From Marinifilum sp. D737 (lineage in GTDB: Bacteria; Bacteroidota; Bacteroidia; Bacteroidales; Marinifilaceae): a stretch of DNA of 64,000 nucleotides. Position 1 is the stretch's first letter, and each line of letters begins with the position of its first letter. The DNA is taken from NCBI RefSeq assembly GCF_026672275.1, contig NZ_JANQCD010000028.1, positions 1-64,000 on the forward strand, read 5' to 3'. This document shows, piece after piece, positions 54,333-62,931 of this stretch. The translations under genes and the position numbers were made by a program. Under the pieces are notes generated by a model. That model had not been told where the DNA came from, did no database searches, and worked only from the letters and a program-made list of their open reading frames with translations.

Positions 54333-57245
54333 TTACACGTTCAGTAAGAAATCGATTAGATTTTCATCTCTTGAGAGATCAAATTTTTTCCGAAGTCTGT
54401 ATCGACTAATTTCAACCCCTCGCACTGAAATATTCATCAGAGGTGCAATTTCCTTAGTAGATAAATTCATTCTTAGATAAGCACACATTCTTAGATCTTT
54501 TGGGGTGAGTTGAGAATATGCACTTCTTAGCCTTCTTAAGAAGTTTTCATGCACTTGATCGAAATGTAATTCGAACTGTTCCCAATCCTGATCACTATTA
54601 AACTCTGAATCCAGAGTTTTCATTAATTGTCGAACTTGTACAAGAGCTGTTGGATCCTTTATCTTCTTTAATGCTTTTTTCAGCTCTCCAACAGCATAGG
54701 AAAGAACCTCGTTCTTATGAATAATATTCATAGTAGAACTTGCCAACTCTCGAGTCTTAAAGTCAACTTCACTCCTTAATTTTTCATTTCTTAGTTGTAC
54801 AATCTCTCTCTCTGCGATAAGTGCTTCTTCTCTAAACTTTTGCTCTTTGGCCTTTAACTCCTCTTGCTGTTGCTTCTCTAACCTTTCATGCATTCTTCTT
54901 ATGCGCAATCGCACTAACAACACAATGCCCCATAAAATGGCTATACTAACCAAGAGATAAATAAAATAGGCCAATTTTGAACGATACCAAGGTGGTAAAA
55001 TTGTAAATTTAAACTCATCGGGAACCGATTGCACTCCATATTGGTTTTGTGCAAGTACACGAAAAACATAGTCTCCTTCAGGCAAGTTTGTATACTCCTT
55101 ACTTGTGTTGGTTTCCCAGTTAGAGGTATCTTGTTCGAAGCCTTGTAATTGATACTTATAATTGACCAACTGCATTTGACTCGACTGCGGAGCACTATAT
55201 TGAAAACCAATTGCATTATTCCTAAACTTAAGAATCACGGGCATCTCCTCATCCTCCTTTTTAAACCCAGAGTAAATAACTGAATCTTGCAAGCTTGTCT
55301 TATCTGCTACCTTCACTTCTCTAATTAAAGTATGGAAAGTATTCTCATACCTTTTTCGCATTTCCGGATTATAATGAACAAATCCATCCTCAGTAGCAAT
55401 TAATACATTTGACCTGTCTATTTCATAAACATTCTCAAAAGCCCCTATAAAAGAACCTCGAATCGAAGAAAAAGCCATTTCATGTTTCTCATAAGAGTTA
55501 TCTACTTGCAATTTCAATACTCCTAACTTTTCATCCTGAAAATACCAGATATCACCATTTGATTGCTCAAAAAGTTTTGTAAGCTCCTTTTCCTTTCCAA
55601 ATAGATTATTTAATGATTGGTAAGCTTCAAACCTATTGATCTCAGGAACATACTCATAAAAGCCCTTATTGGTTGTGAAAACCTCTTTATCACGAATTTT
55701 ATGAATTCCTATGCTTAAATCAGAAGGAAGCCCATCTTCCTTTCCATACAGTTTAAAATTAATACATGAATCCAATGCATTGTTTAAAACGATTCGATAC
55801 AATCCTTTATAACCATGACTCATCCATATGCTGTTATCATCATTCCAAATCATTTCTCTGGATGATTCCTGAAAACCGCCGATTTTTTGTTTAAACCTCC
55901 ACTTCCCCTTTTCCGATTCCCTTTCGAAAAGAATCAAACCAGAATAAGTTCCTCCTATCATTTGATTTGGGAATTCACTTTTATATAAATATTTCCATCC
56001 TCCTTCAACATCACAAATCAGTTCACCTTTATCCTGATTGATCCTAAAAGTACCTTTAGTGTGTCCGCATATGAGCTCATCACCTATTACTTGCAAGCTC
56101 CAAACCTGACCAGAAGTTTTTTCAACAAGCCTAAACTTTTCGTTCAAGTTTAAATCCATATCTAAAAAATCGTACTTACGGGCAAACAAGCCCATATTTG
56201 TTCCCAGGTACAAATATCCCCTAAAATAAATTGAGGAATATCCTGTTCCAATATCTCTTACCCTGGGAAAAGTGGTTACTGGCGAACTAATTTCAAGGTG
56301 ATTAATTCCATTGTCTAAACCTAGCCAAAGATTCTGTTCCGAATCCTGAAATAAACTAAGTATGGTATTATTAAGCAGACCTAAATCTGTATTAACATGT
56401 TGGATAATTTGCCCCCTTTTGTTGAGAATATACAGACCATTTCTAACCGTTCCAAAAACAAAATGATCATCTCTTAGTGCTAAACCTGAGTAGATTTGCT
56501 CTTTAACAAATGACTTGTTTGCATCAAGATTCCATGATTCAATTTCTCTTCCATTATATATAAATAAACCATTCAGGGCAGTTGCAATAAGAAGTTCATC
56601 CTCGGAGTAAGGCAGTACACTAACAATTTCTATATCTTTAAACTTTTCACCGCCTGCCACCAACTGAAAGTCTTGTCCATTCAATTTACAGAGCCCCTTT
56701 CCTAGAATCTGTACATAAAACGAATCATCTATAACAAAACTCTTACGAAAAATCATTCTGTCACCAATAATGGACAATTTATGATCCTTATAGAAAATAA
56801 CTTTTTCAAAGGTGTGAAATACAATTCCATTCCTGAAGTGATAAATTTGCCACACTTCTTCGAAATCTCTTTCCGCCTCGGAAAGCAGATTTACCAAAGA
56901 CCTATAAACCAACTTGCCTTTTGAATCGGGTTCCAAATATCCAAATTCATTGTATGCTCCAACATAAACCCTATCCGACTTGTCGATTGCCAAAGCACGC
57001 ACTACCGATCTATTAGGCATTTCTATTAATCGCCAGTTGGTTCCGTCGAATTCCAGCACTCCTTCATTATTGGCAAAATACATCAATCCTTTAGAAGATT
57101 GTGTAATGTCCCAATTTTGAGTTCCTCCATGATATTCACTTCTTGGAAAATTCTTAATAAAGGGAACTCCTTTGTTTTTTACCTTGGCGAAACAAGAAAA
57201 ATTTATAAGCAGAAATAGGAGTAGTATTGTAGTTGATTTATTCAA
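54333..57245 (-). CDS. One-piece sensor-regulator: beta-propeller, Y_Y_Y, membrane helix, LuxR-type HTH
   Basis: A 970-aa membrane regulator. Signal region (LLLFLLINFSCFA), then propeller repeats of the two-component regulator type over about 40-640 (FANNEGVLEFDGTNW, SLFQDSEQNLWLGLDNGINHL), Y_Y_Y domain (about 680-745, YQLQGFEQDTSNWETNTSKEY), one membrane helix (about 755-778, LAYFIYLLVSIAILWGIVLLV), a coiled coil (785-865) and a LuxR-type HTH at the end (about 905-965, LTPKDLRMCAYLRMNLSTKEI). There is no histidine kinase or receiver domain, so it binds ligand outside and DNA inside in one chain. It lies directly upstream of the SusCD/GH16 genes and is their likely activator. Confidence 0.9.
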   Translation of the reverse strand: MNKSTTILLLFLLINFSCFAKVKNKGVPFIKNFPRSEYHGGTQNWDITQSSKGLMYFANNEGVLEFDGTNWRLIEMPNRSVVRALAIDKSDRVYVGAYNEFGYLEPDSKGKLVYRSLVNLLSEAERDFEEVWQIYHFRNGIVFHTFEKVIFYKDHKLSIIGDRMIFRKSFVIDDSFYVQILGKGLCKLNGQDFQLVAGGEKFKDIEIVSVLPYSEDELLIATALNGLFIYNGREIESWNLDANKSFVKEQIYSGLALRDDHFVFGTVRNGLYILNKRGQIIQHVNTDLGLLNNTILSLFQDSEQNLWLGLDNGINHLEISSPVTTFPRVRDIGTGYSSIYFRGYLYLGTNMGLFARKYDFLDMDLNLNEKFRLVEKTSGQVWSLQVIGDELICGHTKGTFRINQDKGELICDVEGGWKYLYKSEFPNQMIGGTYSGLILFERESEKGKWRFKQKIGGFQESSREMIWNDDNSIWMSHGYKGLYRIVLNNALDSCINFKLYGKEDGLPSDLSIGIHKIRDKEVFTTNKGFYEYVPEINRFEAYQSLNNLFGKEKELTKLFEQSNGDIWYFQDEKLGVLKLQVDNSYEKHEMAFSSIRGSFIGAFENVYEIDRSNVLIATEDGFVHYNPEMRKRYENTFHTLIREVKVADKTSLQDSVIYSGFKKEDEEMPVILKFRNNAIGFQYSAPQSSQMQLVNYKYQLQGFEQDTSNWETNTSKEYTNLPEGDYVFRVLAQNQYGVQSVPDEFKFTILPPWYRSKLAYFIYLLVSIAILWGIVLLVRLRIRRMHERLEKQQQEELKAKEQKFREEALIAEREIVQLRNEKLRSEVDFKTRELASSTMNIIHKNEVLSYAVGELKKALKKIKDPTALVQVRQLMKTLDSEFNSDQDWEQFELHFDQVHENFLRRLRSAYSQLTPKDLRMCAYLRMNLSTKEIAPLMNISVRGVEISRYRLRKKFDLSRDENLIDFLLNV

Positions 57246-57447
57246 AGTAATGGCGATTTTGTTTATTGAAATATATAATGATTCATAAAAATATGCAAAG
57301 TTGTTTTAGATACTACAAAACATCAAGAATAATTTTCCTGTCTAAAAGAGAGATGTACAATTAACAACTCTTAACATCAAAAACACCAGCTCAAACACAC
57401 AAATCACTACACACCTATCACTTACAATCAATAAGCGATTTCTCATA

Positions 57448-57480
57448 TTAACCTTATTTAACCTTGATTCACCTTAAATC
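57448..57480 (+). promoter_or_regulatory. Three 10-bp-phased TTAACC repeats upstream of the barrel gene
   Basis: TTAACC at 57448-57453 and 57458-57463 and TTCACC at 57468-57473 repeat at exactly 10-bp intervals, about 60 nt before the ATG at 57537. The same hexamer repeats at 10-bp spacing, on the other strand, in front of the kinase gene (60511-60526). OmpR-type regulators bind such tandem direct repeats, so these are probable sites for the response regulator encoded at 62221. The rest of the 291-bp gap holds no gene. Confidence 0.5.
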
Positions 57481-57536
57481 ATCTAATAATACATGAATGT
57501 GAACTTTCTTTGAATTGAATTTTTAAACAAAGACTA

Positions 57537-60290
57537 ATGTACAGAATTTCACTATCTATATTTTTCATCCTTACCGGATTATCCTTATTTGCTCAGAAAA
57601 GTTATACATTAACTGGTAAAGTATTAGACTCGCAAGAAGAAGCTTCTTTACCTGGTGCAAGCATTCTACTAATTAATAAATCGGATACCATTCAAAAAAA
57701 AGGTACCATAACCAACGAATTAGGCAATTTCAATATAAAAGTAAAACCAGGACAATATGATTTTCGAGTTTCTTTTATCGGCTATAAGGAGATTAAAAAA
57801 TCAATCTCCGTAGATAAATCATCCATTGACCTGGGTCAGTTTAAATTGATTGAAAACTCTGAATTTCTTCAGGAAATAAACATTACAGAGACCTTACCGC
57901 CAACAAAAATCAAAGGCGATACCACTGTATTTAATCCAGATGCATTCAAAGTAAATCCAGATGCTACTGCAGGGGAACTCTTGGCCAAAATGCCTGGCTT
58001 TTATGAAATGGATGGTAAACTGGTTGTAGAAGGACAAGAAGTTGCTGAAGTATTAGTGGATGGGAAAAAGTTTTTTGGGAATAATATGAATCAAGCTTTG
58101 GCAACTATTCCAAACGATGTAATTAAAAACATTGAAGTTTATGAATACAAAAGCGATGAAGAAAAATTTACCGGACTAAAAAGAAATGAAGAAGATAAAA
58201 AAACCCTAAACATTGTTACCAATAAGAAAAACAAAAGACTTGTTTTTGGTGATGTGGCTGCAGGATTTGGGAAAGATAACAGGTATGGTTTCAATGGAAA
58301 CCTTAACAGTTTTTCAGATAACAATAGCATTACGCTTACAGCAAAATCGAGAGATGTAAATGCCCCGCTAAAATTAAGCAATAGAAATTTTGGAAATAGA
58401 AGTATTGATGGAAATGACATTCAGGATGACTCTTTTGGAATCAACTTTGTAAATTCGAAAAACGAAAATGACATTGAATTTAGCTACGAATATGGCAATC
58501 AAGAATATGAAAACAAGAGCAATAGTGTAAGAACTTATACATCTGATGCACTAGCTGGTCAGGTACAAAATTCGACAAACCATTCGACCAACGACAACAA
58601 TGATCACCGTATTAATCTGAGAGTATCATTAAACTCCAACCCGAAAAACAGGTTAATGCTGAATACCAATATTTCCACAACTGATGGTGAATCAAATTCC
58701 AACTCCATTTCTGATACCAAGTTAAATGGTAACCCTTTAAATTCGAATAATAACCTGAACTCATCCGAAAATAAAAACTACAACCTATATCAAACTGTAA
58801 ATTATTCAAAAAGTCTGGGTAAAAAAGGTCGTTCCTTGAACTTAAATGCTGGATTTAATTACTCCAACAACGAGTCGGAGGGAAAACAATTGTCTGAGAC
58901 TTTTAATGAAAACAATGAAGTAAGTCAAAGTATTAATCGAATTTCAGACTCTAAAAGGAAAAACTCAGGTGTTGATGCAGGAATATCATTTAGCGAACCT
59001 ATGGGTGAAAAAGGATTTGCCAGTTTAGGATATCGCTTCAATTATAACGAACAAAAATCAGATAAATACGGATATAACTTTAATGAAAGTGAAAACTCAT
59101 ATAGTGATTTGGATGAACTAACCACAAATAATTTTGAAAACACAACTTTCAGAAATGCAGGACGATTTTCTTATCACCTTAATGGCAAAACTCATGGCTT
59201 TAGCTTAGGTGCCGATTTTGAAATGACAAGTCTAAAAAATGAGGAATCATTTCCCACTCAGACAAAGTTTAACAAGGATTTCTTTTCATTTAAACCATAC
59301 ATTAGGTATTCGCTCAATTTGAAGAACCAAAAAAGAATTAACCTTAATTACATGTCGCGAACAACAACTCCAAATATTCGCGATTTGCAGGAAATTGTTG
59401 ACCTTTCAAATCCATTAAACATTACAACTGGTAATTCAAAATTGGAACAATCTAAATCTCATACTTTAATGGCACTTTATTCATCATCAAACATGAAAAA
59501 AGGAAGTCATTTGTCGATTCATACTATGGCAACAACAACAAATAATACTGTTGGAAGAAGAACAATTGTTGCTGCTAAGGATACAACCATTAACGGATTG
59601 TACTTTCTGCCTGCAGGAGGACAATTTTCAGAACCTGTAAATCTTGATGGTCAATATTCTATAGGAACAAGTATTTCGTATAGCTTTCCTCTTAAGAAGT
59701 TAAAGTCTAAACTGAACATCAACACAAGAGGTCGGTTTTCTCACAACCCTACTTTTGTTAATGATAAAAAAGCATATACCAATTCGTGGAACTTGAATCA
59801 TGGAATGACACTTAGTTCAAACATTAGTGAAAAAATAGACTTTACATTTACCAGTTCAAGCAACTATCAGAAATCCAATAACACATCCAAGTCTGGTTCA
59901 GAGTATTTATCGCAAACTACCTCATTAAGCATGTATTGGAATTTCTTAAAGGATTTGGTATTTCGAACAAATGCAAGTAACAATTATCAAAATAACTTTT
60001 CTACCAATAGTGTAGATAACTTTTGGCACTTAAACCTTGGTTTATCTACCAAAATATTAAAAAACAAACGTGGAGAATTATCATTCACAGCTTATGATAT
60101 TTTGAGTAAAGATGATCAAAGGTCTCACTTTGTTTCAGACTTATATTCTGTAGATTACTACTCAAACAAGTTGAACAAGTTCTATATCCTTACTTTCAGT
60201 TATAAATTAAGAGATGGCAAAGGAAAAGGAAGAAAGCAACGAGGAGGCCATGGTATGTATCCAACCTATGGCAATTACATGATGATGTAA
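57537..60290 (+). CDS. Outer-membrane beta-barrel protein (TonB-receptor-like, with carboxypeptidase-regulatory domain)
   Basis: A 917-aa outer-membrane protein. Signal peptide (MYRISLSIFFILTGLSLFAQ), a carboxypeptidase-regulatory-like domain (about 25-105, TGKVLDSQEEASLPGASILLI), a plug-like part (about 120-230, DATAGELLAKMPGFYEMDGK) and a long barrel rich in Asn and Ser. It is not a SusC: there is no SusD partner and the barrel is of the OMP_b-brl type. The C-terminal tail (GKGRKQRGGHGMYPTYGNYM, then MM) is Gly/Met/His-rich and may bind metal. Function and ligand are unknown. The phased repeats suggest control by the adjacent two-component system. Confidence 0.82.
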   Translation: MYRISLSIFFILTGLSLFAQKSYTLTGKVLDSQEEASLPGASILLINKSDTIQKKGTITNELGNFNIKVKPGQYDFRVSFIGYKEIKKSISVDKSSIDLGQFKLIENSEFLQEINITETLPPTKIKGDTTVFNPDAFKVNPDATAGELLAKMPGFYEMDGKLVVEGQEVAEVLVDGKKFFGNNMNQALATIPNDVIKNIEVYEYKSDEEKFTGLKRNEEDKKTLNIVTNKKNKRLVFGDVAAGFGKDNRYGFNGNLNSFSDNNSITLTAKSRDVNAPLKLSNRNFGNRSIDGNDIQDDSFGINFVNSKNENDIEFSYEYGNQEYENKSNSVRTYTSDALAGQVQNSTNHSTNDNNDHRINLRVSLNSNPKNRLMLNTNISTTDGESNSNSISDTKLNGNPLNSNNNLNSSENKNYNLYQTVNYSKSLGKKGRSLNLNAGFNYSNNESEGKQLSETFNENNEVSQSINRISDSKRKNSGVDAGISFSEPMGEKGFASLGYRFNYNEQKSDKYGYNFNESENSYSDLDELTTNNFENTTFRNAGRFSYHLNGKTHGFSLGADFEMTSLKNEESFPTQTKFNKDFFSFKPYIRYSLNLKNQKRINLNYMSRTTTPNIRDLQEIVDLSNPLNITTGNSKLEQSKSHTLMALYSSSNMKKGSHLSIHTMATTTNNTVGRRTIVAAKDTTINGLYFLPAGGQFSEPVNLDGQYSIGTSISYSFPLKKLKSKLNINTRGRFSHNPTFVNDKKAYTNSWNLNHGMTLSSNISEKIDFTFTSSSNYQKSNNTSKSGSEYLSQTTSLSMYWNFLKDLVFRTNASNNYQNNFSTNSVDNFWHLNLGLSTKILKNKRGELSFTAYDILSKDDQRSHFVSDLYSVDYYSNKLNKFYILTFSYKLRDGKGKGRKQRGGHGMYPTYGNYMMM

Positions 60291-60345
60291 TGCCATAAAC
60301 ATTAAAGAACAAAATTATTTTCTTTTAATTTTTCATAGTCAATCT

Positions 60346-60383
60346 AAGCAGGTCATTCTTTGAGAATGGCCTACTTTTTTTTT
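60346..60383 (+). terminator. Terminator of the barrel gene
   Basis: A 14-bp stem (60346-60359 with 60363-60376, two wobbles) is followed by nine Ts (60375-60383). It lies 56 nt after the barrel gene stop. Confidence 0.8.
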
Positions 60384-60510
60384 AGAAAAATACTTTTAAG
60401 ATATATGATTCACCCTGATTTTAAACCCTTATATGGATGTCAACAGCTCCTTTTTGTCTTAATTTATTGATAATTGTTCATTAAATGCTGTTTAGCGCTG
60501 ACTGTAATTT

Positions 60511-60530
60511 GGTTAATTAAGGTTAACAAT
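60511..60530 (+). promoter_or_regulatory. 10-bp-phased GGTTAA repeat upstream of the histidine kinase
   Basis: GGTTAA at 60511-60516 and again at 60521-60526, exactly 10 bp apart, is the complement of TTAACC repeated upstream of the barrel gene. It lies 40-57 nt before the kinase start, as expected for an autoregulatory response-regulator site. Confidence 0.5.
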
Positions 60531-60555: not shown

Positions 60556-60563
60556 TATATTTG
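60556..60563 (+). promoter_or_regulatory. -7 box almost touching the kinase start codon
   Basis: TATATTTG matches TAnnTTTG and ends 4 nt before the ATG at 60568. If used, transcription would start at or near the ATG, giving a leaderless or near-leaderless mRNA. No -33 TTG at the usual distance, so this may be chance. Confidence 0.3.
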
Positions 60564-60567
60564 TTTC

Positions 60568-62058
60568 ATGTCTAGAAACCGATTAAATCGAAAGAAAATT
60601 AAAATCATTTCACCAATGGTTTTAAGTATGTTTTTATTGGTCACTTTTGTGGGGTACTGGTTGCATTCTCAATACAATAATGAAAAGAAAAACCTGCAAG
60701 TAGAATTATCCAGACTTTATCATGTATCCATAAACGATGGAGAATTTATCCTCTTTTATCGAAATGTGATAAAACCTGCTATAAATCATCAGGACACCAT
60801 AAATTTCGAAAGCTTAAAAATAGGGTCACCAAAAACCAGTTCAGACTTTAAAAGAGCTTACATCAAAGAGTTAAAAGAATTTATAGATACCAATCAAAAC
60901 TATACAAATATTTTTAGAGCTATTGAAACTAGTTCATTTATCCCTGATAGTTTAAGAGATGAACGATATTATGACATTTTAAGATTGGGTTATCGTTATC
61001 AAATTTACCCTGCCCAAATTCTTTACAATCAAAGGAAAAAATCAAATGATACTACTCAACTATTTTTAAGAAATCTATTCTTAAGAAATGTAGCTATTAA
61101 TTTTCCAAATATAAAAGCCGGACATGAGGATGAAATTGACAGGGAAAATATTGAATTGATTGAAAAAACCAATCAAGAAGTACTAAGAAGAGGAAAATTA
61201 GGCATTATTATATATGCTCGAAGATATGATAAAGCAAGCGTTCTATACTTTGAGCACTATTTCCTGCATCTAATTACAGAAATTCTACCGCAAATTATCT
61301 TCGGAATTGTATTAATCAGTCTGTCGGTATTTGCTTTGGTAGTTGCTTATCGTAGTTACCTTAGCCAAGCAAAGCTAAATATGCTTCGTTCCGATTTTGT
61401 TAGCAATATTACACATGAATTAAAAATTCCGGTATCCACAGCAAAAGCTGCTATGGAAGCCATTCTGAATTATGGAATCTCCGACGATAAAGAAAAAACA
61501 AAGTCCTATCTTAAAATGGTTGCTTCAGAAATGAACCGCCTGGATAGTCTTACTTCAAGAGTATTGGAACACTCAAAGCTCGAGTCTAATCAGCACCTAT
61601 TAAAGAAGGAAGAAACCAACTTAAATGAGTTTGTCGATCGAATTGTGAAGTCGGTACAACTCTTTTCTGCAAATACGATCAATATCAAATTCAACAAACC
61701 CAATGAATTGATAAGCATTCCTATCGACCAGGTATACATTGAAGGGGTAATTCGCAATTTGATAGAAAACAGTAAAAAGTATGGTGGCAATGATGTAAGT
61801 ATTGTTGTGAATCTTTGGCAAAAAGGTTTACATGTTTACATATCGGTTATCGATAATGGCCCGGGAATTCCAAAAGAATATTTGAATAAGGTTTTCGATC
61901 GCTTTTTCAGAGTGCCAACCGGCGATCAACACAATGTAAAAGGATTTGGTTTGGGCTTAAGTTTTGCTGCTTTGGTTATGAAACAACACAATGGATCAAT
62001 CAGTGCAGATAAGCTTACAGAACAAGGTTGTGAAATAAAATTAGAGTTTCCAGCCTAG
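60568..62058 (+). CDS. Membrane histidine kinase
   Basis: A 496-aa sensor kinase. First membrane helix at about 13-32 (ISPMVLSMFLLVTFVGYWLH), a periplasmic sensor part of about 210 residues without recognised domain, second helix at about 240-265 (IIFGIVLISLSVFALVVAYR), then the HisKA domain with His283 in SNITHELKIP, and the ATPase domain with N box (NLIENSKKYGG), G1 (DNGPGIP) and G2 (GFGLGLSF). It phosphorylates the response regulator encoded next. Signal unknown, perhaps envelope state or the barrel protein's substrate. Confidence 0.95.
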   Translation: MSRNRLNRKKIKIISPMVLSMFLLVTFVGYWLHSQYNNEKKNLQVELSRLYHVSINDGEFILFYRNVIKPAINHQDTINFESLKIGSPKTSSDFKRAYIKELKEFIDTNQNYTNIFRAIETSSFIPDSLRDERYYDILRLGYRYQIYPAQILYNQRKKSNDTTQLFLRNLFLRNVAINFPNIKAGHEDEIDRENIELIEKTNQEVLRRGKLGIIIYARRYDKASVLYFEHYFLHLITEILPQIIFGIVLISLSVFALVVAYRSYLSQAKLNMLRSDFVSNITHELKIPVSTAKAAMEAILNYGISDDKEKTKSYLKMVASEMNRLDSLTSRVLEHSKLESNQHLLKKEETNLNEFVDRIVKSVQLFSANTINIKFNKPNELISIPIDQVYIEGVIRNLIENSKKYGGNDVSIVVNLWQKGLHVYISVIDNGPGIPKEYLNKVFDRFFRVPTGDQHNVKGFGLGLSFAALVMKQHNGSISADKLTEQGCEIKLEFPA

Positions 62059-62096
62059 ACGGTGAACAATTAACAAAGTTAAAAGGTTTGCTGCGC

Positions 62097-62138
62097 AACT
62101 GATAACTGATAACTGATAACTGATAACTGATAACTGAT
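62097..62138. repeat. Six tandem copies of a 7-bp unit (AACTGAT)
   Basis: The unit AACTGAT is repeated six times without error in the 162-bp gap between the kinase and response regulator genes. Its length is not a multiple of three, and slippage would change the gap between the two genes by 7 bp steps. No other function is seen. Confidence 0.85.
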
Positions 62139-62220
62139 ATTTAAGTTTTATTAACAAAATCACCCCCGCTCAATCTTCTCACATTTTCTTATCTTGCAGG
62201 GCACTCAAGCTAAGATAATC

Positions 62221-62931
62221 ATGAACAAAACGAAGATACTTTACGTTGAAGACGAACCTAATTTAGGCCAAATCGTTTACGATTCGTTGATCCTAAAAGG
62301 ATTCGATATCATTTGGGAGACAGATGGAGCACAGGTAATGTCGAAATTTCATGATTTTACTCCTGATATTTGTGTTCTGGATATCATGCTTCCAAATGTT
62401 GATGGATATCAATTGTGTGAGCACATCAGATCCAAATTTCCAACACTCCCAATTATTTTTCTTACGGCCAAAACCGAAACTCCGGATCTTGTAAAAGGTT
62501 TTGAAGCTGGAGGTACCGATTACATCCGCAAGCCATTTAGCATTGAAGAATTGGCGATTCGAATCGATAACCAATTAAAGTTACATGGCATTGGCGAGAA
62601 CAAAGAAACAGCAAAGGAGCAAAAAATTGAACATGATGAAATTAAATTAGGGACTTACACCTATTTCCCTAAAAGATATGAATTGATCACACCTTCGAAA
62701 ACCATTAACCTTTCGAACCGTGAAGGCGAATTGCTAAAAAAACTAACCGAAATGGGAAGTAAGGTTGTGGAACGAAAAGACATTTTAATGCAGGTTTGGG
62801 GCGACGATTCATTCTTCAATTCCCGAAACCTGGATGTATACATTAAAAAGCTTCGCAACTACTTTGCCGAAGATGATCATATTGAAATACAAACACTTCG
62901 AGGCAGAGGATATTTGTTTTTGGTGAAATAA
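62221..62931 (+). CDS. OmpR-family response regulator
   Basis: A 236-aa DNA-binding response regulator. I start it at the ATG at 62221 (MNKTKILYVEDEP), which puts the receiver domain at residue 1; a TTG at 62194 would add nine residues before it. The phospho-acceptor is Asp54 (CVLDIMLP), the acidic pair is in YVEDEP, and Lys in YIRKPFS. The C-terminal winged helix spans about 135-236 (LSNREGELLKKLTEMG, VWGDDSFFNSRNLDVYIKKLR, IQTLRGRGYLF). It works with the kinase upstream and probably binds the TTAACC repeats. Confidence 0.95.
   Translation: MNKTKILYVEDEPNLGQIVYDSLILKGFDIIWETDGAQVMSKFHDFTPDICVLDIMLPNVDGYQLCEHIRSKFPTLPIIFLTAKTETPDLVKGFEAGGTDYIRKPFSIEELAIRIDNQLKLHGIGENKETAKEQKIEHDEIKLGTYTYFPKRYELITPSKTINLSNREGELLKKLTEMGSKVVERKDILMQVWGDDSFFNSRNLDVYIKKLRNYFAEDDHIEIQTLRGRGYLFLVK

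Follow-up and report, generated by a model that had tools for sequence, protein, structure and literature searches.

What do the 10-bp-phased TTAACC repeats ahead of two neighbouring genes of this Marinifilum genome control, and which regulator reads them? In the window, i.e. the whole 64-kb stretch analysed (contig C51 of the 5.08-Mb genome, G000), three consecutive genes on the plus strand form what is called the trio below: a PF14905 outer-membrane beta-barrel gene (57537..60290, 917 aa; OMP_b-brl_3 with a carboxypeptidase-regulatory-like domain), a sensor histidine kinase gene (60568..62058, 496 aa; HisKA/HATPase) and an OmpR/PhoB-family response regulator gene (62221..62931, 236 aa; RprY-like, scoring under the RprY model cut-off). 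The family assignment of the two-component pair rests on PF00072, PF00486, PF00512 and PF02518, all of which exceed the Pfam cut-offs; the barrel reaches 41 bits against the SusC/RagA model TIGR04056 (cut-off 368) and is not assigned to that family. The kinase is 97% identical to that of M. flexuosum, and the barrel-kinase-regulator order is kept in 9 of the 10 loci examined (the window, L048-L052, L042, L044 and L045); at the remaining one, L053, no barrel was found upstream of the kinase. AlphaFold models were poor (mean pLDDT of 49 for the kinase and 31 for the barrel) and were not used. The gap between the kinase and regulator genes (62059-62220) holds short tandem repeats that vary among species (CTGATAA here, AGCAGTA in M. 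fragile and M. breve).

Position, rarity and conservation of the TTAACC elements

The initial annotation had described three phased boxes before the barrel gene, the last being TTCACC, and two inverted boxes before the kinase gene; the letters were rechecked and the positions hold. The putative barrel operator on the plus strand (57448..57473) reads TTAACC-TTAT-TTAACC-TTGA-TTCACC, with the exact pair at 57448-57463 and TTCACC at 57468-57473, and the putative kinase operator on the minus strand (60511..60526) reads TTAACC-TTAA-TTAACC. A distal plus-strand pair before the barrel gene (57361..57376), TTAACA-ACTC-TTAACA, resembles the rprXY promoter site TTAACA-ATCT-TTAACA.

In the 5.08-Mb genome, TTAACC-N4-TTAACC occurs in 3 exact copies compared with 9 for a reversed-pattern control, so that the exact pair is rare and not enriched; with up to one mismatch, there are 40 pairs against 129 in the control, and in the window, pairs with up to two mismatches number 10, with 8.6 expected from shuffles. 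Thus, a genome scan, proposed as a check of the element, finds the pair no commoner than its control, whereas location, conservation and a fixed spacer all exceed chance. Two of the three exact genome copies fall at the barrel-kinase locus. In six aligned Marinifilum genomes, the barrel element shows no variation in any of its 34 columns, which run from the first TTAACC to TTAAATCA, compared with 52 invariant columns among the 170 others of the intergenic region; at the kinase site, the figures are 15 of 16 columns compared with 15 of 116 around it (seven Marinifilum loci), one base being changed in M. breve. When G026 is added, 29 of the 34 barrel columns and, in eight loci, 15 of the 16 kinase columns are kept. 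The distal pair keeps 15 of 16 columns in the six Marinifilum genomes and 13 with G026. In G026, G049 and G050, the barrel site is TTAACC-TTAA-TTAACC, accompanied in the latter two by a weaker in-phase TTTACT; in these two genomes, the shorter region before the kinase gene contains no site. Across the eight regulator-carrying genomes, the spacer is TTAA or TTAT in 28 of 28 matches to the N4 pattern. Judged by such comparison, the TTAACC boxes before the barrel and kinase genes are real, strongly conserved control sites. The 10-bp direct repeats conserved at these genes would suit the head-to-tail binding, on direct repeats about 10-11 bp apart, that marks the OmpR/PhoB family.

The trio regulator and its relation to RprXY

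Among the 56 genomes of the family set, the same 8 gave matches to both the kinase (E <= 1e-60) and the regulator (E <= 1e-62); absence is not exhaustive for large genomes, in which 50 of up to 105 regulator candidates, and 27 for the kinase, were scored. The pair with spacer TTAA or TTAT is present in all 8 genomes where the regulator was found. The 48 others contain 18 N4-pattern matches, in 12 genomes, none of which has either spacer. The segment FFNSRNLDVYIKKLRNYF, presumably the recognition helix given its position, is identical in five aligned regulators, including that of G049 (66% overall identity), and differs from RprY.

Relatives of the barrel reach E <= 1e-100 in at least 10 of 393 genomes of the order, the own genome included (2 candidates scored per genome). 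Of nine barrel loci at ~28-31% identity, eight lack any match to the kinase and regulator at E <= 1e-3, and the sole half-site match in the nine is one degenerate pair, at L138; at L143, two frames of hybrid type weakly match kinase and receiver, one of them lying directly upstream of the barrel gene.

The trio regulator scores 187 bits against the RprY equivalog model NF051850 (cut-off 370) and 140 bits against the Bacteroidetes PhoB model NF053854 (cut-off 270). It is 40% identical to the separate RprY of its own genome (384 bits), and the kinase matches the own-genome RprX only from about residue 226 on, i.e. in the kinase half, besides two insignificant short alignments. Upstream of rprX, we found a perfect TTAAC-N5-TTAAC in 22 of 34 loci (0.2 expected), five of which use TTAACC as one half-site; the own-genome rprXY site is TTAACAATCTTTAACA. 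This set comprises 33 of the 53 genomes with RprY over the cut-off plus G053, where it is below, and counts L309 as a miss (its rprX match begins at residue 221, placing the true upstream region outside the view). In 22 of 22 perfect rprXY sites, TAnnTTTG follows the site at 27 bp, compared with 29 bp at the trio kinase; in layout, the promoter of the trio kinase is close to a copy of the rprXY promoter, with the same orientation and nearly the same spacing. Other kinases were also compared. The seven loci with hk75-type kinases contain no perfect site, and a 9-of-10 site occurs in three (0.6 expected); four of the five regions fetched for the C119-type kinase turned out to be of the C75 type. 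A third related kinase gene has GTTAAC-N4-GTTAAC upstream in 3 of 3 loci (L271 2050-2067, L279 4765-4782 and L311), a pattern in which, GTTAAC being self-complementary, either strand shows a TTAAC pair.

These data bear on an alternative in which the TTAACC sites are read mainly by RprY proper or by some other sister regulator, the trio being just one target locus. Consistent with it, RprY exceeds the model cut-off in 53 of the 56 genomes, the rprX sites include TTAACC half-sites, and near-identical sites exist where the trio was not found. Against it, TTAACC-TTAW-TTAACC is absent from all 48 genomes with no regulator match although 45 of them have RprY over the cut-off, and we consider this alternative unlikely. 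Control by the trio's own regulator is the preferred reading. The view that this regulator reads the site and controls its own genes gains comparative support from three sides: the site tracks the regulator, its distance to the -7 element is fixed, and the kinase promoter is rprXY-like. A tree of 22 rprX proteins, which takes in 6 of the 8 carrier genomes, places G049 apart from Marinifilum and G026, and of 200 bootstrap trees, 0% unite the carriers as a single clade; support is 80-82% at the forks that separate the two carrier lineages, and the branches with good support are compatible with one origin.

According to the available text of two reports, RprY of P. gingivalis binds its own promoter (PMC5706477, PMC3646045), and one of them describes it as a repressor (PMC3646045); no RprY DNA-binding motif was found in the text available from PMC3646045, PMC5706477 and PMC6032018, and a search of accessible literature for TTAACC with Bacteroidetes returned nothing related. 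The trio resembles RprX/RprY of the Bacteroidales (in P. gingivalis: oxidative stress, nqr, chaperones) in having a related regulator and a near-identical autoregulatory promoter layout, but it differs in the site (TTAACC rather than TTAACA) and adds a linked barrel gene and thiol-redox targets.

Promoter geometry and candidate targets

The barrel and kinase genes each have a plus-strand -7 element, which we assign to the consensus TAnnTTTG. The barrel element (57505..57512) is TTTCTTTG in the window and in M. flexuosum and TATCTTTG or TATATTTG in seven relatives; it lies 41-42 bp past the second half-site and 31-32 bp past the third, a distance conserved among relatives. The kinase element (60556..60563), TATATTTG, lies 29 bp past the operator and within a block of 18 of 18 invariant columns. 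It ends 4 bp before the start codon, and the element is about equally near the start codon in many rprX genes; the messages of the kinase and of such rprX genes may therefore be leaderless.

The same geometry speaks to the possibility that the operator serves not the barrel gene but the divergent propeller-type regulator gene (54333-57245) and its polysaccharide locus, with which, in Marinifilum, the site shares an intergenic region. This is very improbable: the distance from the site to the barrel -7 element is fixed, and in G026, G049 and G050, where the barrel site persists, the propeller gene has no match within about 3 kb upstream of the barrel gene. An origin of the repeats by chance, or as AT-rich sequence conserved through drift, which the unenriched degenerate pairs of the window might suggest, is refuted by the invariant columns and the constant spacer and has almost no probability left.

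Regulation of the barrel gene from this site is probable, but the claim that the barrel is the main target finds no support, since the same site also precedes a set of envelope thiol-redox genes. In the regions around exact and near matches, these encode secreted thioredoxin-like proteins, TlpA/AhpC-TSA lipoproteins, a DsbD N-domain protein and a PF12974 binding protein followed by two ferredoxin-type proteins (the ferredoxin operon). Ten places in the own genome lie within two mismatches of TTAACCTTAATTAACC: seven at described genes, two inside reading frames (C53 and C130) and an unassigned one on C41. The target sites there are at C64:73341 (the thioredoxin promoter), 99980, 100699 and 103974, and the degenerate site before the DsbD gene has two mismatches. 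In G050, the barrel's is the sole exact pair in the genome; a G026 target of 498 aa has no Pfam match. The regulon predicted from these sites is wider than the barrel and two-component genes, and its candidate members are functionally coherent; the shared rare site suggests a small regulon of envelope thiol-redox genes under this sensor/regulator pair in marine Marinifilum. On contig C64 (L317 2448-19503, L316 6948-18011), genes that read as ECF-sigma-like, FecR-like and SusC/SusD-like (names by frame reading) lie beside or between the thiol-redox genes.

At 15 of 25 thiol-type upstream regions, TTCA[CT]-N15-18-TGTC, which we liken to ECF-sigma promoters, follows 14-19 bp past the site (0.06 expected from order-1 shuffles); as written, it is absent from the other 10, and by itself it is not rare (7 in the 64-kb window). 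The ECF-like pattern also occurs without the operator before thioredoxin genes of trio-less genomes (L175, L177 and L178), so the operator looks like an addition. In the M. flexuosum genome (G036; L105 4143-4900), operator and ECF-like promoter are kept upstream of a thioredoxin gene which matches from residue 184 onward only, and its thioredoxin part thus seems lost.

Related sites extend to a conserved small RNA of about 80 nt, which consists of the core GGTTTTCATAGATTAAAATGGGTTAG and an intrinsic terminator and is preceded by a -7 element and a site of the TTAACC-N4-TTAACA type; it is represented by L241 in the own genome (C59:277-354, promoter at C59:218) and by loci in 17 further genomes. 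At 84 bits or more, it is found in 18 of the 56 genomes (8 with the trio and 10 without), and TTAAC[CT]TT[AC][AT]TTAAC[AG] lies upstream in 18 of 18, six of these loci having served to build the small-RNA model. The model also gives 37-39 bits to L247, L251, L252, L254 and L255, which share TTTTTCATAG and a terminator, with CTTTAAC upstream, and are possibly further family members. An Rfam search of nine loci, eight of them with the small RNA, returned only tRNA at the gathering threshold, the matches of L241 being weak and far below it. None of 125 own-genome start regions has 10 or more contiguous bases complementary to the small RNA (the best has 9; shuffled mean, 0.5), which gives no support to pairing with start codons.

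The hybrid TTAACC..TTAACA sites precede the small RNA in its ten carrier genomes that gave no regulator match. Similarly, TTAACCTTAATTAACA, with one mismatch, lies at the thioredoxin orthologue of G029, a trio-less genome, and in G030, likewise with no regulator match, a site with two mismatches is present. Given such near-identical sites, another RprY-like regulator may share some of them; the operator logic thus extends past the trio, and RprY is likely to cross-read.

Proposed scheme and comparison with other systems

Taken together, the comparisons make it probable that the trio's two-component pair drives the barrel gene, its own genes and a thiol-redox regulon through TTAACC sites and represents a divergent RprXY-type system. 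The kinase (60568-62058), perhaps in response to an envelope thiol/redox or folding signal, would phosphorylate the response regulator (62221-62931), which would then bind TTAACC half-sites 10 bp apart, head-to-tail. Positioned upstream of the core promoter, the regulator would most likely activate rather than repress the barrel gene and its own kinase-regulator genes, though the repressor role reported for RprY of P. gingivalis speaks against this. A third group of targets, many activated via ECF-sigma-like promoters, would comprise the genes for DsbD-type and secreted thioredoxin-fold proteins as well as an operon for Fe-S electron transfer. The trio site would depart from the RprXY site chiefly by its final base and its spacer.

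Two other systems share features with this scheme. In the available text of PMC1906773, the Pho box CTTAACCT of cyanobacterial SphR, a box of the PhoB family, consists of tandem direct repeats with a TTAACC core; there, each repeat is 8 bp long and the linker 3 bp, giving 11 bp, compared with 10 bp at the trio site, and among the annotated trio targets, one PF12974 binding protein alone recalls phosphorus uptake. The phosphate (Pho box) reading was rejected because the regulator fails PhoB models. In PorXY-SigP of P. gingivalis, according to the text available from PMC4800418, two-component control works via an ECF sigma factor; the likeness lies in joining such control to ECF-type transcription, but in the present case the site itself stands beside putative ECF-like promoters.

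A broader interpretation, which we put forward tentatively and hold to be doubtful as a whole, is a dedicated envelope thiol-redox stress response, in which the regulator would act atop ECF-sigma promoters (TlpA, thioredoxin and DsbD), sister RprY-type regulators reading TTAACA would drive the small RNA, and paralogues would have divided up one ancestral operator according to final base and spacer. For an RprXY-type system, the comparison proposes an operator together with a promoter geometry and a short list of testable targets, and it points to envelope disulfide chemistry as the output of that system. It also suggests that paralogous regulators in one genome may divide one operator between them via a single base and the spacer.
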